Below, one piece after another: positions 3,964 through 28,315 of a stretch of DNA of 64,000 bases (within the stretch, counting starts at the first letter, position 1; each line of letters begins with the position of its first letter). Under the pieces are notes generated by a model. That model ran no database searches and was not told where the DNA came from. It saw only the letters and a program-made list of their open reading frames with translations. A program made the position numbers and the translations under genes. This DNA comes from Thiopseudomonas denitrificans (GTDB lineage Bacteria > Pseudomonadota > Gammaproteobacteria > Pseudomonadales > Pseudomonadaceae). Location of the stretch: NCBI RefSeq assembly GCF_002866065.1, contig NZ_LNJZ01000009.1, forward strand, positions 310,001 through 374,000, read 5' to 3'.

Positions 3964-4140
3964 ATGGAAATTGGAATGCTGCGCGGCCTGGGCACACTGG
4001 TGGTGTTTGTTGCTTTCATCGGGCTGGTTTTCTGGGCCTACAACGGCAAGCGCAAGAGCAGCTTTGACGAAGCTGCCAACCTGCCCTTTGCCGATGATGC
4101 ATCCGATACCACTAACTCCGCAAAAGAACCCAAGGAGTAA
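3964..4140 (+). CDS. ccoQ: Cytochrome cbb3 oxidase small subunit CcoQ
   Basis: A 58-codon gene between ccoO and ccoP. The product starts [11 protein letters not shown], has one membrane span (about residues 8-26) followed by a positively charged NGKRKSS segment and an acidic C-terminus; size and topology fit CcoQ/FixQ, which stabilises the CcoNOP complex. It starts 5 bp after the ccoO stop and ends 4 bp before ccoP. An AAGGAGTAA at its end doubles as the ccoP ribosome-binding site. The first operon has no equivalent. Confidence 0.92.
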
Positions 4141-4144
4141 AGTC

Positions 4145-5059
4145 ATGACTTCATTTTGGAGCTGGTACGTCGTCATCCTGACCACGTTCACCCTGGTGGC
4201 CCTGGTCTGGCTGGTACTGGCCACCCGCAAGGGCCAGCACAGTGATACCACGGACCAAACCGTGGGCCACGTCTATGACGGCATCGAAGAGTACGACAAC
4301 CCCCTGCCACGCTGGTGGTTCATGCTCTACATCGGCACCGTCGTCTTTTCCGTCGGCTACCTCGTCCTCTACCCCGGCATGGGCAACTGGAAGGGCATCC
4401 TCCCCGGCTATGACGGCGGCTGGACCTCGGCCAAGCAATGGGAGCGCGAAGTCGCACGCGCCGACGAAAAATACGGCCCCATCTTCGCCAAATACGCCAG
4501 CATGTCCATCCAGGACGTCGCCGCTGACGAAGACGCACAAAAAATGGGCTCGCGCCTGTTCGCCAACCACTGCGCCATCTGTCACGGCTCCGACGCCAAG
4601 GGCTCGCCCGGCTTCCCCAACCTGACCGACAAGGACTGGCGCTGGGGCGGCGATGCAGACACCATCATGACCACCATCCTCCATGGCCGCACCGGCGTCA
4701 TGCCGGCATGGGGTGAAGTCATCGGTGAAGACGGCGTCAAGAACGTCTCCGCCTATGTCCGCGGCGAGCTCGCCGGACTGCCGCTGACCGATGCCGACTC
4801 CTTTGATCTGGAGCATGGAAAGCAGGTTTTCGCACAGACCTGCGTCGCCTGCCATGGTCCTGACGGCACCGGCATGGCAGTATTGGGCTCGCCCGACCTG
4901 ACATCACCCGGCGGCTGGATCTATGGCCAGAGCCTGACACAGATCCAGCAGACCGTACGCTACGGCCGCACCGGCGTCATGCCGCCACAGCAGGAGTTCC
5001 TCGGCAACGACAAGGTCCACCTGCTCGCAGCCTACGTCTATGGACTGTCCAGAGACTGA
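4145..5059 (+). CDS. ccoP: Cytochrome cbb3 oxidase subunit III CcoP (second copy)
   Basis: Dihaem cytochrome c subunit of the second cbb3 oxidase: 304 residues, two membrane spans, and haem motifs CAICH (143-147) and CVACH (233-237). A longer in-frame reading from inside ccoQ exists, but the ATG before TSFWSWY, 5 nt after AAGGAG, matches the first copy. I count about eight nucleotide differences from that copy over 915 bp, four of them within the first 25 bases. Confidence 0.97.
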
Positions 5060-5073
5060 TGTCACCTGAAAAT

Positions 5074-5109
5074 GGCTGCGGCGGCACTTTGCCGCAGCCT
5101 TGTTTTTCT
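5074..5109 (+). terminator. Rho-independent terminator of the second cbb3 operon
   Basis: GGCTGCGGC (5074-5082) pairs with GCCGCAGCC (5091-5099) and is followed by TTGTTTTTCTT. It lies 14 bp after the ccoP stop and separates the oxidase operon from ccoG. Confidence 0.85.
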
Positions 5110-5200
5110 TGTATGGGCGTATCATTTCAAGGGTGAACAAACCTGTTCCGGCCGGTATACTACCGACAGAGCATGCTAGTAATCCATACAAGGCACAAAC

Positions 5201-6604
5201 ATGAGCAATCAAATACCCGTCAAGAACGTTACACCGCCCACACAAGGCGGTGACTTGTACGCAAAACGCGAAAAGATTCACACCCGCGCCTTCACCGGGC
5301 TGTTCCGGACGGTACGCATGTATGTGGGTGCTTTCCTCTTTTTACTCTTTCTGGGTACCGCCTGGCTCAACTGGGATGGCCACCAGGCCGTCTGGTGGAA
5401 CCTGCCAGAGCGCAAATTCTATGTATTTGGCGCCACCTTCTGGCCCCAGGATTTCATGCTGCTGTCCTGGCTGCTGATCATTTCCGCCTTTGCCCTGTTT
5501 TTCGTCACCGTATATGCCGGCCGCGTCTGGTGCGGCTATGCCTGCCCACAAACCACCTGGACCTGGATCTTCATGTGGGTGGAAAAAGTCACCGAAGGTG
5601 ACCGCAACAAGCGCATCAAACTGGACAAGGCCCCGATGTCGCTGGAAAAATTCCTGCGCCGCTTTGCCAAACACAGCCTGTGGCTGCTAATCGGTCTGGT
5701 CACCGGGCTGACTTTTGTCGGCTACTTCACCCCGATCCGCGAACTGCCGATGGACCTGCTGACCGGCCAGGCCAATGGCTGGGCCTATTTCTGGGTCGGC
5801 TTCTTCACCGTCATGACCTATCTGGCTGCCGGCTTCCTGCGCGAACAGGTCTGCATCCACATGTGCCCCTACTCCCGCTTCCAGAGCGTGATGTTCGACA
5901 AGGACACCCTGATCGTTTCCTACGATGCCAAGCGCGGTGAAAACCGTGGTGCCCGCAAAAAAACCGCCGATTACAAGGCCGAAGGCCTGGGCGACTGCAT
6001 CGACTGCACCCTGTGCGTGCAAGTGTGCCCGACCGGCATCGACATCCGTGACGGCCTGCAGATTGCCTGTGTCAGCTGCGCCGCCTGTATCGACGTCTGT
6101 GACGAGGTCATGGACAAGATGGGCTACGAAAAGGGCCTGATCCGTTACACCACCGAGCACAACCTGTCCGGTGAAAAAACCAAACTGCTGCGTCCACGCC
6201 TGGTTGGTTATGCGGCGGCCCTGCTGATCATGATCAGCCTGTTCTCCTATACCGTTTTCAATCGCACACTGGTCGAGCTGAACGTGATCAAGGACCGCAT
6301 CCCTTACCGCGAGAACATGTCCGGCCGCATCGAGAACGTCTACCTGCTGCGCATCATCAACAAGGACCAGCACGCCCACACCTATGTGCTGGAAGCCAGC
6401 GGCCTGTCCGGCATCACACTGGAAGGCAAGCAGAACTTCGAGGTACAGGCCGGGGAGATCTTCTCCGCACCGGTTTCAGTTTCGGTTGATCCGGAAAACA
6501 TCGGTTCCAGCACCAACAAGATCGAATTCACCATCCAGTCGGTGGACGACCAGAGCATTTCCCGCTCGTCCAAATCCACCTTCACCGGCCCCGTCATCCG
6601 TTAA
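5201..6604 (+). CDS. ccoG: Cytochrome oxidase accessory protein CcoG (FixG)
   Basis: Inner-membrane iron-sulfur protein needed for cbb3 assembly, where the family acts as a cupric reductase for copper delivery to CcoN. The 467 residues carry about five membrane segments, a CGYACP motif near residue 109, and a ferredoxin-like double 4Fe-4S region beginning at Cys266 (CIDCTLCVQVCP, then CVSCAACIDVC). The last 100 residues form the periplasmic Ig-like FixG C-terminal domain. It heads the ccoGHIS assembly group, with ccoH 18 bp downstream. Confidence 0.96.
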   Translation: MSNQIPVKNVTPPTQGGDLYAKREKIHTRAFTGLFRTVRMYVGAFLFLLFLGTAWLNWDGHQAVWWNLPERKFYVFGATFWPQDFMLLSWLLIISAFALFFVTVYAGRVWCGYACPQTTWTWIFMWVEKVTEGDRNKRIKLDKAPMSLEKFLRRFAKHSLWLLIGLVTGLTFVGYFTPIRELPMDLLTGQANGWAYFWVGFFTVMTYLAAGFLREQVCIHMCPYSRFQSVMFDKDTLIVSYDAKRGENRGARKKTADYKAEGLGDCIDCTLCVQVCPTGIDIRDGLQIACVSCAACIDVCDEVMDKMGYEKGLIRYTTEHNLSGEKTKLLRPRLVGYAAALLIMISLFSYTVFNRTLVELNVIKDRIPYRENMSGRIENVYLLRIINKDQHAHTYVLEASGLSGITLEGKQNFEVQAGEIFSAPVSVSVDPENIGSSTNKIEFTIQSVDDQSISRSSKSTFTGPVIR

Positions 6605-6622
6605 ACAAGAGGAATACCCGTC

Positions 6623-7135
6623 ATGCAACAGACCGCGCAAACAAGCAGCCGCTGGTACAAGGAACCCTGGGCCTGGTTCGTGCTGGGCATCCTGGGCTCC
6701 TCGGTAGTGCTCGGTCTGTCGCTGTTGACCATCGCCATCAATAACCAGCCGAGCATGGTGGTAGACAACTACTACGATGCCGGCAAAGGCATCAACACCT
6801 CGCTGGAGCGCGAGCGCCTGGCAGTCAAGCTCAACATGCAGGCACTGCTGGTGCTGGACAGCGAGCGCGGCGAGGTGTTGCTGGAGCTGCAGGGCATGAG
6901 CCAGCCGCAACAGCTGGTACTCAACCTGATCTCCCCCACCCAGCCCGAGCGTGACCGCCGCATCGTACTGCAACCCGGCCAGCTTGCCGGCCAGTATCGC
7001 GGACTGCTGACCGAAGAGATCAGCGGCCGCCGCTTTGTCGAACTGCTGGGCGCTGAAGAGGGTCATGACTGGCGCCTGTTTGAAGAGGAAGAACTGAGCC
7101 CCGGCCAGCCTGTCGAGCTGGGCGAAGCCCTCTGA
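6623..7135 (+). CDS. ccoH: Cytochrome oxidase assembly protein CcoH (FixH)
   Basis: A 170-residue FixH-family protein required for stable cbb3 oxidase; known members bind the assembling complex. It has a short cytoplasmic N-terminus, one membrane span at about residues 14-36 and a periplasmic domain. It starts 18 bp after ccoG behind AAGAGGAA, and ccoI starts 25 bp after its stop, so the genes are probably cotranscribed. Confidence 0.93.
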
Positions 7136-7160
7136 GGCATGCCCTGACGGCCGCATCCCG

Positions 7161-9575
<2,415 letters not shown>

Positions 9576-13112: not shown

Positions 13113-14318
13113 CTATGGGCGATGACCCGGCTCATGCTGCAGGCAGGGCTCGAAAAATCGCTGCAGCCGCTCCTTCTGAGCGATCGCATCCTGATAGCCC
13201 AGCTCGACCAGCTCCCGGCAGTAATCCTTTTCAAACAGCAAATAGCTCAGAACGCCGCCGCCCGTGCTGCGGGTTGCACCCGGCCCCCGCAGAAAAGTAC
13301 GGATCGATGACGGCAGCTGGTGCCGGTGTCGCACGGCAATGTCATCGATGATCTGGCTGGGCTGGATCACCAGCACCTCGACCGGTGCCAGCCCTTCCTG
13401 CAAGTGGTGGTACTCGCCCGGAATCAGGTTCCCGAGCTGGTTGAGCCGCTCCAGCAGCTCCAGGTCGGACTCAAGGTTGTCAGTAAAGGTGCTGTTGAGC
13501 AGGTGACCGCTGATCTGGGCCAGCGTAGGTGCTCGCAGTTGCAACCGGCTGTTGGCCTGTTCCTGCAAGCGGCTGTTGACGCCCACCACCAGAATCCGGT
13601 TAGCGCCCAGATGCAGCGCAGGGCTTATCGGCGCGGCCTGGCGCACCGCGCCGTCACCATAGAAACTGCTGCCAAGGCGCACCGGCGGAAACAACAGCGG
13701 AATGGAGGCGCTGGCCAGCAAATGATCCAGCCCGAGCCGGGTCGGAACGCCCTGACGCCGGTAGCGCTGCCAGGGCAGCACGGTGCCCCGGCTCTGGTAA
13801 AACGTGGTGGACTGGGCATCCTGATAGGAAAACGCGGTGATGCCGATTGCCCTCAGCTTGCGCCGGGCAATTGCCAGGCTGATGCCGCTGAAATCCAGCT
13901 CGCTGGCCAGCAGCTCGCGCAACGGCTCATTATTGAGCAGGGCCAGCGGTACCTGCCCGCGCCCCAGTCCCAGAAGATGCACACGACTGAAACGCATGGC
14001 CTGCTGCAACACCCCCGGCCAATCGGTGCGGTATACCTTGTTGGTGGTGAAGTTCTGCCAGACCTGTTCCAGTTGCTGTATCGAGCGCTTGAAATGCACG
14101 GCACCACACGCCAGGCTGACCGCGTTGATGGCCCCGGCCGAAGTGCCGACAATCACCTGAAAGGGGTTTTCCTCCGGCTGCGGCCACAGGTCACCAATGG
14201 CCTTCAACACACCGACCTGATAGGCCGCGCGTGCACCACCTCCGGACAGGATCAGGCCGGTAACCGGGGGGGCCGGCCGCACGATCTTCTTGCGGAACAG
14301 ATGCTCACCGATACTCAA
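13113..14318 (-). CDS. Patatin-like phospholipase
   Basis: Serine lipid acylhydrolase of the bacterial patatin family. From the proposed start it has 401 residues: oxyanion loop GGGAR (26-30), nucleophile elbow GTSAG with Ser60, and the catalytic DGA with Asp222. The open frame extends upstream to an ATG inside the acyltransferase gene, but a TTG overlapping that gene's TGA stop (TTGA), 10 nt after GGAAGGCGAGG, is the more natural coupled start. It therefore appears cotranscribed with the acyltransferase. The substrate is unknown. Confidence 0.88.
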   Translation of the reverse strand: MSIGEHLFRKKIVRPAPPVTGLILSGGGARAAYQVGVLKAIGDLWPQPEENPFQVIVGTSAGAINAVSLACGAVHFKRSIQQLEQVWQNFTTNKVYRTDWPGVLQQAMRFSRVHLLGLGRGQVPLALLNNEPLRELLASELDFSGISLAIARRKLRAIGITAFSYQDAQSTTFYQSRGTVLPWQRYRRQGVPTRLGLDHLLASASIPLLFPPVRLGSSFYGDGAVRQAAPISPALHLGANRILVVGVNSRLQEQANSRLQLRAPTLAQISGHLLNSTFTDNLESDLELLERLNQLGNLIPGEYHHLQEGLAPVEVLVIQPSQIIDDIAVRHRHQLPSSIRTFLRGPGATRSTGGGVLSYLLFEKDYCRELVELGYQDAIAQKERLQRFFEPCLQHEPGHRP

Positions 14319-15235
14319 TAGACTCGAGCCTCGCCTTCCGGCCGGGTTTTGAAACGCCTGTGGCTCCACAGATACTGCTCGGGATGCGCGGTGATCGCCT
14401 GTTCGACCCACTGGTTGATACGCAGGCAATCCTGTTCTTCACTTGCACCCGGGAAATCCTGCCAGGCCGGCTCCACCTGAATCAGATAACCCTTGCCGCG
14501 TGGCAGGCGGGTCTGGCGCATGGGTATCACCACGGCCCGGCCCAGCCGGGTAAAGCTGCTGGTCGCCGTCACCGTGGCCGCCGGTACGCCAAACAGCGGA
14601 ACAAACAGGCTCTGCCTGGCACCATAATCCTGATCCGGTGCGTACCAGATCGCCCGCCCCTGGCGCAAATGCCGGATCATGGTGCGCACATCCTCGCGCT
14701 CGATGGCAATCGCGTCGGCATTGTGGCGCTCGCGCCCCTTGCGTTGCACATAATCGAACAACGGATTCTTGTGCGCCCGGTACATTCCGTCGATGGTGTG
14801 TTGCTGCCCCAGCAGGGCCGCCCCGATCTCCAGCGTGGTAAAGTGGATCGCCATCAGGATCACCCCCTGCCCGGCCTGCTGAGCCTGCTGCAGATGTTCC
14901 AGCCCCTCGATGCGCACCAGCCGCTGCAGGCGCTGCTGCGGCCACCACCAACTCATCGCCATTTCAAAAAAGGCAATGCCGGTGGAAGCGAAGTTCTGCC
15001 GCAACAGGTAGTCCCGCTCGGTCACCGTCAGCGCCGGAAAACACAGCTCAAGGTTACGCCTGGCAATATGCCGGCGGGAGCCGGCAAAACGGTACATCAG
15101 CGCCCCCAGCAATCGTCCGAGCCGGAGCAAGAACGGATAGGGCAGGCGTACCAGCAACCACAGCACGCCCAGTCCCAGCCACAACAACCAGAAGCGGGGG
15201 TGCAAAAATTGTCCGCTGAAGCGGTTTTCCTTCAT
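14315..15235 (-). CDS. Lipid A biosynthesis acyltransferase (LpxL/HtrB family)
   Basis: Inner-membrane acyltransferase adding a secondary acyl chain to the lipid A precursor. The 306 residues have an N-terminal membrane anchor (about 13-31), the catalytic HX4E dyad HFTTLE (His131, Glu136), and an APDQDYG segment typical of the family. The stop overlaps the patatin gene start. Whether it is the lauroyl transferase or a paralogue for another chain cannot be told here. Confidence 0.9.
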   Translation of the reverse strand: MKENRFSGQFLHPRFWLLWLGLGVLWLLVRLPYPFLLRLGRLLGALMYRFAGSRRHIARRNLELCFPALTVTERDYLLRQNFASTGIAFFEMAMSWWWPQQRLQRLVRIEGLEHLQQAQQAGQGVILMAIHFTTLEIGAALLGQQHTIDGMYRAHKNPLFDYVQRKGRERHNADAIAIEREDVRTMIRHLRQGRAIWYAPDQDYGARQSLFVPLFGVPAATVTATSSFTRLGRAVVIPMRQTRLPRGKGYLIQVEPAWQDFPGASEEQDCLRINQWVEQAITAHPEQYLWSHRRFKTRPEGEARVY

Positions 15236-15336
15236 GTCGTGCCTTCCACACCTGAAAACCGCTCCAGTTTACGGAAAAATTTGCAGACTCGCACGCTTGC
15301 GGCTATAAGACTATTTTTTGCGCACTGGACCCAAGC

Positions 15337-16071
15337 ATGGAACAAACCGATTTACTGGAACAGGAACCGGAACAGCAGGCACCGGCTTTCCAGCTCAAGG
15401 GCAGCATGCTGACCCTGACCACCCTCGAGCTGCTGAGTAACGACCTGGCGGCCCTGGATAGCCAGCTGGCCGAAAAAGCGGCCCAGGCTCCGGACTTCTT
15501 CCGCGATGCCCCGCTGATCCTGGCACTGGACAAACGCCAGCCCGGCGACCTGCCCGACCTCGCCGAGTTGCTGACCCTGTGCCGTAACCACGGTCTGCGC
15601 CCGCTGGCCATCCGTAGCGAGCAGGAAGAGGAGCTGGCCGCAGCAGCGGCCATCGACCTGCCGGTACTGCCGCTGTCACTGGCCCGCGACCGCAACCTGC
15701 CGGCCCAGCCGCAGCCCGCAGCCCCCAAAGAGCCCGAATTGCTGCCGGCCCGCATCATCAACAGCCCGGTACGCAGCGGCCAGCAGATCTATGCGAAAAA
15801 TGCCGACCTGATCGTCACCGCCTCAGTCAGTGCCGGAGCCGAACTGCTGGCCGACGGTCACATCCATGTCTATGGCGCGATGCGCGGGCGTGCGCTGGCC
15901 GGCATCAACGGCAACACGCAGGCACGCATTTTCTGCCAGCAACTGGGCGCCGAACTGGTATCCATTGCCGGCCAGTACAAGATCGCCGAAGACCTGCGTC
16001 GTATTCCGGCCTGGGGTAATGCCGCCCAGATTTACCTCGATGGTGAACAGATGCACATTATTGCACTCTAA
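15337..16071 (+). CDS. minC: Septum site-determining protein MinC
   Basis: FtsZ-polymerisation inhibitor that blocks polar septa. The 244 residues include an N-terminal FtsZ-interacting domain (about 15-105), an Ala/Pro-rich linker (about 125-140) and a C-terminal beta-helix domain with the [12 protein letters not shown] motif that dimerises and binds MinD. It is the first gene of minCDE, with minD 99 bp downstream. Confidence 0.96.
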
Positions 16072-16170
16072 GCACGGCAGGCAGGCTTTTGTACGTGCGC
16101 ACGCTGTTTCAAGCCGTTATAATTGCACGCATTTGTTCGGCCTCTTTCCATTCATTTTAAGGTGACTCCC

Positions 16171-24516: not shown

Positions 24517-24540
24517 CCGGGCCGGCCCCGGCTATTTTTT
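24517..24540 (+). terminator. Probable terminator after the Bat operon
   Basis: CCGGG (24517-24521) pairs with CCCGG (24527-24531) and is followed by CTATTTTTT. It lies just past the batD-like stop and overlaps the last codons of convergent xerC. Confidence 0.5.
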
Positions 24541-25419
24541 GCGTTTGGCTCTGGGATGGGCCTGATCATAGACCTGGGCCAGGTGCTGAAAATCAAGATG
24601 GGTGTAGATCTGGGTGGTACTGATGCTGGCATGCCCCAGCAACTCCTGTACCGCCCGCAAGTCCTGCGACGATTCAAGCATATGGCTGGCAAACGAGTGG
24701 CGCAGCATGTGGGGATGCAGATGCTGGCCCAGCCCTGCCTGACCTGCCGACGCCAGTGCCTTGCGCACCACACTGGTGTGGATGCGTGCACCCCGCAGGC
24801 CGACAAACAGCGCCTGCGGTTCCCTGGCCATCCGTTCACGCACCTCCAGCCAGTCACGCAATGCCTGGCAGGCACGGCGGCCAACCGGCAGCAACCGCTC
24901 CTTGTTGCCCTTGCCCAGCACCCTGACCTGGCCCGTTGTCAGGTCAAGGTCCGGCAGATCCAGCCCGGCCAGCTCCGACAGGCGCAGCCCGGACGAATAG
25001 AACAACTCAAGTATGGCCCGGTCACGCAGCTGTTGCGGGCTGTCCGCCGGCAACTCGTCCAGCAGCTGGCCGGCACGGTCCACATCAAGAACCCTGGGCA
25101 AACGTTTTTCACCGCGCGGCGGGCGAACTCCCTGTGCCGGGTTGTTGACCAGCACGGTCTCACGCTGCAGATGGCGGAAAAAGCTGCGCACAGAGGACAA
25201 CATGCGGGCGATACTGGCCGGGGCATAACCGCTGCGCCGCAGTCCTGCCAGCCAGCTGCGTACATCGGCCGGGGTGACCTGCACCCAGTCAGCAATGCCG
25301 TTTGCCTGCCAGAACGCCAGTGCCTGCTGCAGGTCGCGCCGGGCAGCCTCGATACTGTGTGCTGACAGCTGGCGGCCGGCGCGGCGGCCTTGCAGCCAGC
25401 ACTCCAGCTGCTCCTGCAT
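24532..25419 (-). CDS. xerC: Tyrosine recombinase XerC
   Basis: Site-specific recombinase that, with XerD, resolves chromosome dimers at dif. The 295 residues comprise an N-terminal core-binding SAM-like domain and a catalytic domain with Arg146, Lys170, His237, Arg240, His263 and nucleophile Tyr272. It overlaps the DUF484 stop by one base and follows the dapF-position gene and DUF484, as in Pseudomonas. Confidence 0.96.
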   Translation of the reverse strand: MQEQLECWLQGRRAGRQLSAHSIEAARRDLQQALAFWQANGIADWVQVTPADVRSWLAGLRRSGYAPASIARMLSSVRSFFRHLQRETVLVNNPAQGVRPPRGEKRLPRVLDVDRAGQLLDELPADSPQQLRDRAILELFYSSGLRLSELAGLDLPDLDLTTGQVRVLGKGNKERLLPVGRRACQALRDWLEVRERMAREPQALFVGLRGARIHTSVVRKALASAGQAGLGQHLHPHMLRHSFASHMLESSQDLRAVQELLGHASISTTQIYTHLDFQHLAQVYDQAHPRAKRKK

Positions 25420-26117
25420 CAGGGCCCGTCTACGCTGCTGCGGCAGTGTTCCTGCAGCAAGGGAGGTAGCACCCTGGCCAGCACCTGGGCAATGAAGCCG
25501 AGAAACAGCGTACCTACGGTATGGCTGTATTTCTGTGCATCCGGGCTGCCCAGCGCCAGCATGCCCAGCGCCAGCGGTTGGCCAAAAGTAGCCACCGCAG
25601 CAGAGCGCACCCCGGCAGCTACCTCCTCGCCAAACAGGAACGCCAGCTCGTGTTCACGCAGGGCACCGCTGACCACCTGGTCATTCAGCATCGCCGGCAC
25701 CTGTTGCCTGGCCTGTGCCAGGGAGACACCCCGCGCCACGTCGAGCTGATAATCGGTAAAGATCAGCAAGCTCACCGCCGGCACCTGGAAACGTTCGCGC
25801 AGGCCGTCCTCCAGTGTCGCCACCAGAGCTTCCAGGCTGCCGGCATCCAGCAGTTCAAGGGTAAGCTGGCGGGTCAGTTCGAACAGGCGATCATTGTCAC
25901 GTGCCACCTCCACCAGCCGGTTCAGGCGCTGGTGCATGTCCAGACTGCGGCCACGCAATACCGTCAACTGGCGTTCAACCAGCGAGATGGATGAACCGCG
26001 AGCATGGGGAATGCGCAAATCGGCCAGCAGGTCATCCTGCTGCAAAAAAAACTCGGGATGCCGGCGCAAGTACTCTGCCACCACGTCGTCATCCAGAATC
26101 CGGATCTCTTCAGTCAT
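25419..26117 (-). CDS. DUF484 family protein
   Basis: A 232-residue cytoplasmic protein with an N-terminal helical region, a probable coiled coil (about 45-80) and a GAF-like C-terminal domain. Members lie between dapF and xerC in many gammaproteobacteria; the function is unknown. It overlaps the upstream DapF-like gene by 4 bp (ATGA) and xerC by 1 bp. Confidence 0.9.
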   Translation of the reverse strand: MTEEIRILDDDVVAEYLRRHPEFFLQQDDLLADLRIPHARGSSISLVERQLTVLRGRSLDMHQRLNRLVEVARDNDRLFELTRQLTLELLDAGSLEALVATLEDGLRERFQVPAVSLLIFTDYQLDVARGVSLAQARQQVPAMLNDQVVSGALREHELAFLFGEEVAAGVRSAAVATFGQPLALGMLALGSPDAQKYSHTVGTLFLGFIAQVLARVLPPLLQEHCRSSVDGP

Positions 26118-26914
26118 AAACGTATTTGTCCTTCATAGGCCGGCCAGGCCCGGGCACACAGCTGCACACTGTCCTGTTGCGGGGAAAACTCCAGCAACAG
26201 GCAGTCCTGCTGCCACTCGACCTGCACCGCCTGCTGTGGCCAATTTTGTTGCACCATGCTGGCGATCAGCCAGACCGGGTCATGCCCTGCCGGCTCCGCA
26301 TCAGCTTGCCAGCCCTGCACGCGAATGTGCTCTTCATGGGTGTACAGCCAGAGCAGCTGCCAACCGCGCAGCTTGCGTGCCACCGGCTGCAACAGGCGGT
26401 GCAGACGCTGCGGCGGTGCCTGGTCGGCCCAGACCAGCAGCTGCCGGCCATGGGCCTGCCAGTCCAGTATCAACGCATGCCTTTGCGCCAGCTGCTGCAA
26501 ATACCGCTCCAGTTCTTCTGGCAGTACATCGGTACCAAGGAGTCCGATATTGCCATAGCTGGCCGATACCCAGCCGTCATCACGCATGTGGATGTCGACG
26601 CAACCACCGGCAGTCTGCAAACGCAAACCGGGCTGATTGGTCAGGCGCTTGTCGTGCAGAAAGCGGGCAGCACAACACAGATCGGCAAAACAGCTGTCAA
26701 CCTCGCTGCCGTTGCGGTCAAAACTGCGGCAGTCGAAATCGGCTGCCGGGTCGCGGGGAATGTCCACCACCACCAGCCTCCTGAAGCCGACCCCCTGGGT
26801 CCGCCGTGACCACTGCTGGATCAATGACGGCTCAAGCTGCGCCTGCTGGGCGAGATTGTCGACCAGCATCAGGTCATCGCCCAGACAATACAGTTTGCCA
26901 AAACGCAACAACAT
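26114..26914 (-). CDS. DapF-derived protein lacking most epimerase active-site residues
   Basis: This sits where dapF normally lies, between lysA and DUF484. The 266 residues are recognisably DapF-derived: MLLRFGKLYCLGDD at the start, GVGFRRLVV (41-49), RNGSEVDSC (67-75), DKRLT (88-92) and the YEGQIRL end. Cys75, corresponding to the first catalytic Cys, remains, but the following GNGxR is FADLC, and the second active-site segment (ACGTGAC in DapF) is AGHDPVW (209-215). The early substrate-binding Asn is Asp. It is unlikely to epimerise LL-diaminopimelate, so the cell should have another DapF or an equivalent. The ATG at 26914 is chosen over an extension into lysA. Confidence 0.82.
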   Translation of the reverse strand: MLLRFGKLYCLGDDLMLVDNLAQQAQLEPSLIQQWSRRTQGVGFRRLVVVDIPRDPAADFDCRSFDRNGSEVDSCFADLCCAARFLHDKRLTNQPGLRLQTAGGCVDIHMRDDGWVSASYGNIGLLGTDVLPEELERYLQQLAQRHALILDWQAHGRQLLVWADQAPPQRLHRLLQPVARKLRGWQLLWLYTHEEHIRVQGWQADAEPAGHDPVWLIASMVQQNWPQQAVQVEWQQDCLLLEFSPQQDSVQLCARAWPAYEGQIRL

Positions 26915-26918
26915 GCAG

Positions 26919-28166
26919 TTACTCCGGCAGAACCTGCTCGCTGGCAAACAGCTCGGTTACGGTTTCGCGCCGGCGCACCAGATGGTGCCGGTCGCCGTCC
27001 ACCATGACCTCGGCGGCGCGTCCGCGGGTGTTGTAATTGGACGCCATGACAAATCCGTAGGCTCCTGCCGAACAAACCGCCAGCAGGTCACCTTCTTCCA
27101 CGACCAGTGTCCGGTCCTTGCCGAGAAAGTCTCCGGTTTCGCAAACCGGTCCGACCACATCATAGTTGCGGCCGCTACCCTGACGGGGTGTCACCGGCAC
27201 GATATCCATCCAGGCTTCATACAGCGCCGGACGGATCAGGTCGTTCATGGCAGCATCAACCACGGCAAAGGATTTGCCCTCGTTGATCTTCAGGCATTCG
27301 ATCCTGGTCAACAACACACCTGCATTGGCGGCAATGTAGCGGCCCGGCTCGAACAGCAGCTTCAGGTTGCGGCCAGCGGTGCGCTCCCGCACCCGGGCCA
27401 TGTATTCGCTGGCAGACGGCGGCTGTTCATCACGGTAACGCACGCCAAGGCCGCCGCCCAGATCCAGATGTTCCAGGTGGATGCCGCATTCCGCCAGACG
27501 ATCGACCAGCAACAGCACCCGGTCCAGCGCGTCCATGAAGGGGGCAAGGCTGGTCAATTGCGAACCGATGTGACAATCGACACCGGTAATGCGCAAGTTG
27601 GGCATGCGGGCCGCCTGCAGGTACACCTCTTCGGCATCCTCGATGGGAATGCCGAACTTGTTTTCCTTCAGCCCGGTCGAGATGTACGGATGAGTACCGG
27701 CATCCACGTCAGGGTTTACCCGCAAAGAGATGGATGCCTGCACACCAAGCTCTGCAGCCACCTGTTGCAAGCGTTCCAGCTCGCTGACCGACTCGACATT
27801 GAAACAGTACACCCCTGCTTCCAGGGCACGGCGCATTTCATCACGCTGCTTGCCAACGCCGGAGAACACCACCTTGCCGGGGTCGCCACCGGCAGCCAGT
27901 ACCCGTTCGAGCTCACCGACCGAGACGATATCGAAGCCGGCACCCAGACGGGCCAGCACATTCAGCACGGCGAGATTGGAGTTGGCCTTGACCGCAAAAC
28001 ACACCAGATGATCAACACCCTGCAAGGCATCGGCATAATCGAGATACTTGCGCTCGAGGTGGGCGCGGGAATAGACATAGACGGGGGTGCCATGGGTGCG
28101 GGCAATCTGCTCCAGTGCCACGTCCTCGGCGAACAGCTGTCCGTCATGCAAGGAAAAATCAGTCAT
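26919..28166 (-). CDS. lysA: Diaminopimelate decarboxylase
   Basis: PLP enzyme that decarboxylates meso-diaminopimelate to L-lysine. The 415 residues include the PLP-binding Lys60 in CFAVKANSN, the GGGLG phosphate-binding motif, and CSAGAYGFVMASNYN near the C-terminus. All expected elements are present, in contrast to the altered dapF-position gene 4 bp downstream. A second in-frame ATG four codons upstream overlaps lptM; the chosen start gives MTDFSLHDG. Confidence 0.96.
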   Translation of the reverse strand: MTDFSLHDGQLFAEDVALEQIARTHGTPVYVYSRAHLERKYLDYADALQGVDHLVCFAVKANSNLAVLNVLARLGAGFDIVSVGELERVLAAGGDPGKVVFSGVGKQRDEMRRALEAGVYCFNVESVSELERLQQVAAELGVQASISLRVNPDVDAGTHPYISTGLKENKFGIPIEDAEEVYLQAARMPNLRITGVDCHIGSQLTSLAPFMDALDRVLLLVDRLAECGIHLEHLDLGGGLGVRYRDEQPPSASEYMARVRERTAGRNLKLLFEPGRYIAANAGVLLTRIECLKINEGKSFAVVDAAMNDLIRPALYEAWMDIVPVTPRQGSGRNYDVVGPVCETGDFLGKDRTLVVEEGDLLAVCSAGAYGFVMASNYNTRGRAAEVMVDGDRHHLVRRRETVTELFASEQVLPE

Positions 28167-28174
28167 GCCGGCCC

Positions 28175-28315
28175 TCACAGCTCGAACTTGTCTTTGCGGT
28201 GCTCGCGCGCGGCTTTTTCGTCATCCGGATGGTACAGCGGACCTTTTTGCCCACAGGCACTGGTCAGTCCCAGCAAAACCATCAAGCCAATCAGGGGCAG
28301 AATGCGGCGCTTCAT
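28175..28315 (-). CDS. lptM: LPS translocon maturation lipoprotein LptM (YifL/LppL)
   Basis: A 46-residue lipoprotein beginning MKRRILPLIG, with a lipobox ending TSAC (lipidated Cys21), followed by GQKGPLYHPDD, the LptM/YifL signature. In E. coli LptM promotes oxidative maturation of LptD. AAGGAAA lies upstream of the ATG. It is the first gene of the lptM-lysA-(dapF position)-DUF484-xerC transcript and is divergent from cyaY. Confidence 0.92.
   Translation of the reverse strand: MKRRILPLIGLMVLLGLTSACGQKGPLYHPDDEKAAREHRKDKFEL

Follow-up and report, generated by a model that had tools for sequence, protein, structure and literature searches.

What occupies the dapF position of Thiopseudomonas denitrificans, and why is it kept there if it no longer works as an epimerase? 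The window, a stretch of 64,000 nucleotides, carries at this position a gene that a preliminary description, made from the letters alone, took to be DapF-derived: GNGxR after the first catalytic cysteine and the second-cysteine motif were seen to be replaced, next to an intact LysA that needs meso-diaminopimelate (meso-DAP). It argued that the reaction must be done elsewhere and that the 4-bp overlap with the DUF484 gene points to selection. The observation is confirmed here; the interpretation is partly supported. The features of the locus are collected in Table 1.

Table 1. Features around the dapF position (window coordinates; bit scores followed by the family cut-off)
Feature	Position	Strand	Description
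xerC	24532-25419	-	downstream of DUF484; TIGR02224 351.6 bits (cut-off 335.15)
DUF484 gene	25419-26117	-	shares 4 bases with the 26114-26914 gene; PF04340 183.9 bits (cut-off 24.2)
Conserved C-terminal YEGQIRL codons	26114-26140	-	also house the GAAGGA ribosome-binding site and the ATGA overlap of DUF484 (16/16 genomes)
Gene of the DapF-derived protein, a probable pseudoenzyme	26114-26914	-	266 aa; ATG at 26914; active site replaced
Remodelled first active-site stretch, EVDSCFADLCCAAR region	26682-26705 (approximate)	-	Cys at position 73 of the E. coli numbering; other residues in place of Gly-Asn-Gly-Ala-Arg
lysA, diaminopimelate decarboxylase	26919-28178	-	intact upstream neighbour; TIGR01048 531.1 bits (cut-off 297.9)

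Four bases (26915-26918) separate the lysA stop from the reading frame, whose TGA overlaps the DUF484 ATG by four bases (ATGA). The gene is the sole match to the DAP-epimerase family PF01678 in a 2.84-Mb genome rated 100% complete, and this match straddles the cut-off of 34.7 (33.1 bits in the protein scan, 34.8 bits in the genome scan). The protein reaches 49.1 bits with the DapF family TIGR00652 (cut-off 114.65), in a match that covers residues 15-135 alone, that is, the N half (protein read from an upstream TTG). In the AF2 model (pLDDT 88.1), the two-domain DapF fold is predicted to be retained, and the model aligns with P. aeruginosa DapF 8qzy_A over 254 residues (Z 24.7, rmsd 3.3). The same fold is predicted for the copy of Denitrificimonas caeni, from the sister genus (pLDDT 90.4); the alignments fed to AF2 contained 21 true DapFs. 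From gene order and predicted fold, we judge the gene to be a DapF without the DapF active site.

To see how far this loss extends, we compared 16 genomes, 12 from the sister genus (including D. caeni, G057) and four from the window's genus, several of them incomplete (76-93%). In all 16, lysA and/or xerC lies on the same stretch as the dead dapF, and the four copies of the window's genus are all at the lysA-DUF484 junction. The residues that bind the substrate in DapF are presumably N11, Q44, N64, G74-N75, N157, N190 and E208-R209 (E. coli DapF numbering, obtained by aligning the clade proteins to true DapFs, with the C half aligned less surely). C73 and C217 are the catalytic cysteines of E. 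coli DapF, according to PMC4227774. The window protein has a Cys at 73, with a Cys pair close to it, but carries N11D, Q44R, N64D, G74F, N75A and E208Q and has no Cys at 217. It thus lacks the pair of catalytic cysteines and the set of substrate-binding residues of a DapF; its TIGR00652 score is also below the cut-off. The first catalytic cysteine read in the preliminary description is real in this genome and absent from its 15 relatives: at position 73, the 12 sister-genus proteins have Leu or Gln, and the four window-genus proteins have Cys, Ser, Thr and Ser. Cys217 is found in 0/16. Across the clade, all 16 proteins have Arg for Q44 and Gln for E208, 15 of them have Asp for N64 and the remaining one has Ala there, and G74, N75 and R209 are replaced throughout, as are N157 and N190 in the 15 proteins with a residue at those positions. 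N11 is retained in 11 of the 12 sister-genus proteins and in none of the four others. Arg36 is present in 16/16, and position 268 is Tyr or Phe in 16/16. As G061 and G020 share one protein sequence (100% identity), the count of 16 comprises 15 distinct proteins. Five replacements (F13L, Q44R, Y60C, G76D, E208Q) are identical in all 16 proteins, which most likely dates the dismantling of the active site to before the split of the two genera. The combination of active-site loss with an open frame in 16 genomes of two genera is beyond chance. A sequencing error or one broken strain is ruled out by the 16 genomes.

How, then, is meso-DAP made? By established biochemistry, Ddh aminates tetrahydrodipicolinate directly to meso-DAP, a single step that makes both LL-DAP and an epimerase dispensable. 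The preliminary description had proposed to look for a complete dapF, dapL or ddh. A search of the window genome found no complete dapF elsewhere, and none of its six aminotransferase matches reaches the TIGR03540 (DapL) cut-off. A ddh gene was found on contig 8: its product scores 465.6 bits with TIGR01921 (cut-off 180.6) over positions 2-324 of 324, and 326 of its residues align with 3wyb, a meso-DAP dehydrogenase of solved structure. The view that the reaction is done elsewhere thus needs changing: epimerisation has probably been bypassed by Ddh rather than relocated. On this contig (L046, G000:C8:58000-71000, 3985-8957), ddh lies at 6112-7098 between putative trpE and trpD-trpC, names read by eye. 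As to DapL, the conclusion for the window genome rests on the TIGR03540 genome search and on family scoring of the six matches, which are best described as two other aminotransferases, an alanine-aminotransferase-like protein, two HisC and a MocR-type regulator. DapL as the replacement was rejected, since TIGR03540 matches occur in 8/8 genomes and none is above the cut-off.

Ddh exceeds its cut-off in 15 of the 16 clade genomes (4/4 of the window's genus, 11/12 of the sister genus); it was not found in the sister-genus genome G065, which is 82% complete. Among 370 genomes drawn across the class, only four reach this cut-off, the window genome counted, and two more members, at 120.7 and 105.7 bits, are below it and were left out of the count. 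DapE was searched for in six clade genomes (the four of the window's genus and two of the 12 sister-genus genomes) and found in none of them; both outgroups have it. The four genomes of the window's genus yielded no DapD either, so LL-DAP should not be made there. The two sister-genus genomes sampled for both enzymes, out of 12, have a diverged DapD (416-418 bits, cut-off 518). In these proteins, the GGGCSTMGTLSGGG stretch is altered (L065, G020:C1:1179384-1180352; L066, G035:C4:284137-285111), and DapE was not found; this DapD is perhaps a second pseudoenzyme of the same pathway branch.

These results bear on whether the protein could still be an epimerase or racemase acting through other residues. 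Its predicted fold would allow this, and the window protein offers Cys73 with the Cys pair nearby. However, Cys73 occurs in one of 16 proteins and position 217 is never Cys, Q44, N64, N75, N190 and E208 have given way to other residues wherever the position is present, and, since DapE was not found, LL-DAP is not expected to be available as a substrate. We regard residual catalysis of this kind as very remote.

Ddh is 74-79% identical between the two genera (10 sister-genus and four window-genus proteins compared), and clade Ddh is 62-68% identical to the Ddh of G017, G263 and G358, G066 excepted. Because Ddh is closer between the genera than to these three, a single acquisition before the split would fit. 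The G066 Ddh (L220, G066:C251) is 64-69% identical to clade Ddh and 76% to that of G017, which may reflect a separate origin or contamination of this 76% complete assembly. G017, G263 and G358 have both PF01678 halves in addition to Ddh. Since they keep DapF beside it, Ddh is ruled out as a sufficient cause of DapF loss: it permits the loss and does not force it.

Three sister-genus genomes (G035, G057 and G062) have a complete DapF elsewhere (TIGR00652, 299-301 bits) and retain the dead copy too. That the dead copy is kept despite the complete one counts for selection on it. On one stretch of G035 (L045, G035:C2:160000-178000; 6137-6988, 13601-14869 and 14876-16114, minus strand) and on one of G057 (L089; 5050-5901, 13400-14668 and 14675-15913, minus strand), a complete DapF is found together with a DapL (TIGR03542, 585 and 592 bits) and with a second gene resembling lysA, whose scores of 295 and 286 bits are just below the cut-off of 297.9. 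In addition to Ddh, some sister-genus genomes thus have a complete set for the route through LL-DAP. The second DapF of G058 (L090, G058:C94, 7771-8759, plus strand) looks broken, as it is spread over two overlapping reading frames.

The family models separate these complete copies poorly from the dead ones. Four sister-genus dead copies score 115.2 (G035), 113.3, 112.8 and 104.5 bits with TIGR00652, one of them above 114.65, and the three checked against the Pfam cut-off (G020, G035 and D. caeni) all exceed it. With dead copies in this range, the TIGR00652 cut-off fails to tell dead from live DapF. The G035 protein (L043, G035:C1, 4460-5290, minus strand) exceeds it without either catalytic Cys, so that TIGR00652 can label a dead copy an epimerase. 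This is an annotation trap: automatic calls can assign a DAP epimerase to bacteria that probably lack one, and thereby mask Ddh as the likely route to meso-DAP.

Is the dead gene maintained? Frameshifts in relatives, named in the preliminary description as grounds for rejecting its reading, were looked for and not found: the frame is without a stop in 12/12 sister-genus genomes and in 4/4 of the window's genus. The G001 copy is shortened to 199 aa (L067, G001:C45, 4114-4713, minus strand), with the C half mostly missing in frame and the N half and EGQIR tail kept. The sister-genus proteins are 60-100% identical to the G020 copy (12 genomes); under simulated drift by substitution alone, the frame is still open in 0.1% of runs at 20% divergence. 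Between the window gene and three congeners, 119 of 222, 136 of 265 and 132 of 289 differences fall at third positions, an excess with P values of 5e-14 to 4e-10 (four pairs). In the sister-genus N half, differences at the three codon positions are 0.134, 0.034 and 0.462. Codon positions 1 and 2 are thus constrained, by a test that is independent of dN/dS ratios.

The dN/dS ratios are rough, because synonymous sites are near saturation in most pairs, including those of the window's genus; pairs with dS above 2.5 or undefined were dropped. In the sister genus, the N half comes out at 0.054 (usable pairs: 52 of 66) and the C half at 0.217 (usable pairs: 47 of 66), next to 0.067 for xerC, 0.073 for DUF484 and 0.039 for lysA (five of the 12 genomes). 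For the window's genus, the ratio over the entire gene is 0.156 (three of six pairs usable) versus 0.136 for xerC, 0.23 for DUF484 and 0.065 for lysA. With the LysA rate set to 1, that of the N half is 1.30 in the sister genus (eight of the 12 genomes, picked because lysA and xerC were found by motif), 2.86 in the window's genus (three genomes; 2.85 with G001) and 0.77 in true DapF (49 loci). The corresponding C-half rates are 6.64, 3.44 (5.25 with G001) and 1.29. Constraint on the dead DapF is relaxed as compared to true DapF, and these rates indicate a firm hold on the N half in the sister genus and a looser one in the window's genus. The comparison of substitution rates suggested in the preliminary description thus reveals protein-level constraint, strongest in the sister-genus N half. 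A phylogenetic tree came with long-branch warnings and was left out of the argument.

In addition, the 12 sister-genus proteins agree without exception on 20 N-half and six C-half residues that none of 65 true DapFs has; since all but three of the latter were picked by the motif CGNGAR, novelty at positions 74-76 follows from this choice. Examples of the fixed residues in the N domain are W72, D76, V80, L83, A85, A93, H101 and H109. Five of the 26 are common to all four window-genus proteins, namely the shared replacements given above. New residues that then stop changing are the mark left by a new or narrowed function.

The tail of the gene calls for a separate reading. In 16/16 genomes, the YEGQIRL end holds a GAAGGA-like ribosome-binding site and the DUF484 start, which explain the conserved tail and the overlap, and not the N half. 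The selection that had been read from the 4-bp overlap is borne out by codon positions and dN/dS, but the overlap on its own says little in favour of the protein, given that the same end carries this ribosome-binding site; the N domain is the better evidence. An RNA element behind the conservation was also considered, and no Rfam match at the gathering threshold was found at three loci.

Translational coupling is the core of a further explanation, in which dapF became useless after Ddh and persists mainly as a relaxed frame that couples lysA translation into DUF484 and xerC. The ATGA overlap and ribosome-binding site kept in 16/16 genomes, the roughly fivefold relaxation of the sister-genus C half, the raised rates throughout the window's genus and the shortened G001 copy are all consistent with such a relict. 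However, coupling requires an open frame and not a fixed amino-acid sequence, which agrees poorly with the codon-position differences and dN/dS of the sister-genus N half and with new residues that are now fixed there. We find this explanation unlikely; it is harder to exclude in the window's genus. The protein encoded at 26114-26914 is not simply a decaying relict.

Overall, the sequence comparisons favour, with a probability of about 0.7, a clade-wide DapF pseudoenzyme that would be non-catalytic and under selection following the Ddh bypass. Against this reading count the relaxed constraint relative to true DapF, the near-saturated dS in the window's genus and the loss of most of the G001 C half. 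An ancestral dapF would have become a pseudoenzyme at its native locus: the acquisition of Ddh would have removed the need for an epimerase, and catalytic and substrate-binding residues would then have been replaced. DapF would have been kept for a non-catalytic binding job, which would now be its sole one and would depend chiefly on the N domain. The protein may still form a DapF-like dimer, given Arg36 and Tyr/Phe268. Going further, we tentatively suggest, with the odds somewhat against it, that the DapF of this lineage already had a non-catalytic job able to survive alone, and that after Ddh it shed catalysis to become a dedicated binding protein, perhaps an RppH-type activator of mRNA decay.

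To our knowledge, a second, non-catalytic DapF role is known from E. coli only. The best-precedented job would be to bind and stimulate RppH, an mRNA 5'-end hydrolase. Tight binding and stimulation of RppH are seen with E. coli DapF and likewise with its C73A/C217A variant (PMC4227774), which means that a DapF without catalysis can have a job. According to PMC7144940, the E. coli R36A/Y268A protein forms no dimer and has no catalysis, and still binds and stimulates RppH. As RppH binding needs no dimerisation there, the conservation of Arg36 and Tyr268 gives an RppH role no support. The RppH gene (NF001938 above cut-off) is present in all ten genomes searched; since both outgroups are among them, it permits a role in the clade without singling it out. 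A P. aeruginosa two-hybrid screen reported PA2504 to be the only partner of RppH (PMC8466066), which counts against this reading. By analogy with E. coli, RppH would be the leading candidate for a partner, if a doubtful one.

Another partner or ligand may be considered, with the protein regulating the DAP/lysine pathway, as a meso-DAP or lysine sensor or as a partner of LysA or Ddh, instead of acting in mRNA decay. This is a branch of the pseudoenzyme reading, set apart since it names another partner. The dead dapF adjoins lysA, and some of the newly fixed residues occupy positions that formerly bound the substrate (44, 64, 74-76, 208 and 209). On the other hand, the main substrate-binding residues are replaced, so the ligand would need to have changed. 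We hold this branch to be improbable.

The Ddh bypass and pseudoenzymes are already known kinds. We found no report of a clade-wide, selected, catalytically dead DapF orthologue at its native locus in the titles and abstract starts of the open-licence papers that our searches brought up, and the T. alkaliphila genomics paper (PMC11302033) has no mention of lysine, diaminopimel or dapF. The clade is a natural separation-of-function mutant, with catalysis removed and the protein kept. It could reveal what the non-catalytic role of DapF is and which surface serves it.

Compared with the DapF family (TIGR00652, PF01678), the clade proteins share the gene order lysA-x-DUF484-xerC, the predicted two-domain fold, N-half motifs, Arg36 and Tyr268; unlike it, they have the two-cysteine apparatus and most substrate-binding residues replaced (16/16). 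The window genome resembles the Ddh variant of the DAP pathway in its full Ddh (466 bits, aligned to 3wyb), and differs from the other three Ddh-bearing class members (G017, G263 and G358) in that their DapF stays complete. With E. coli DapF as an RppH stimulator, it would share a catalysis-independent DapF role, and the window genome does carry an RppH gene. However, one E. coli protein does both jobs, whereas the window protein lacks catalysis and its link to RppH is drawn by analogy. Like pseudoenzymes generally, the clade proteins have a conserved fold, have lost the catalytic motif and remain under constraint. Many pseudoenzymes sit beside an active copy; in contrast, the dead copy is the only DapF found in the window genome.
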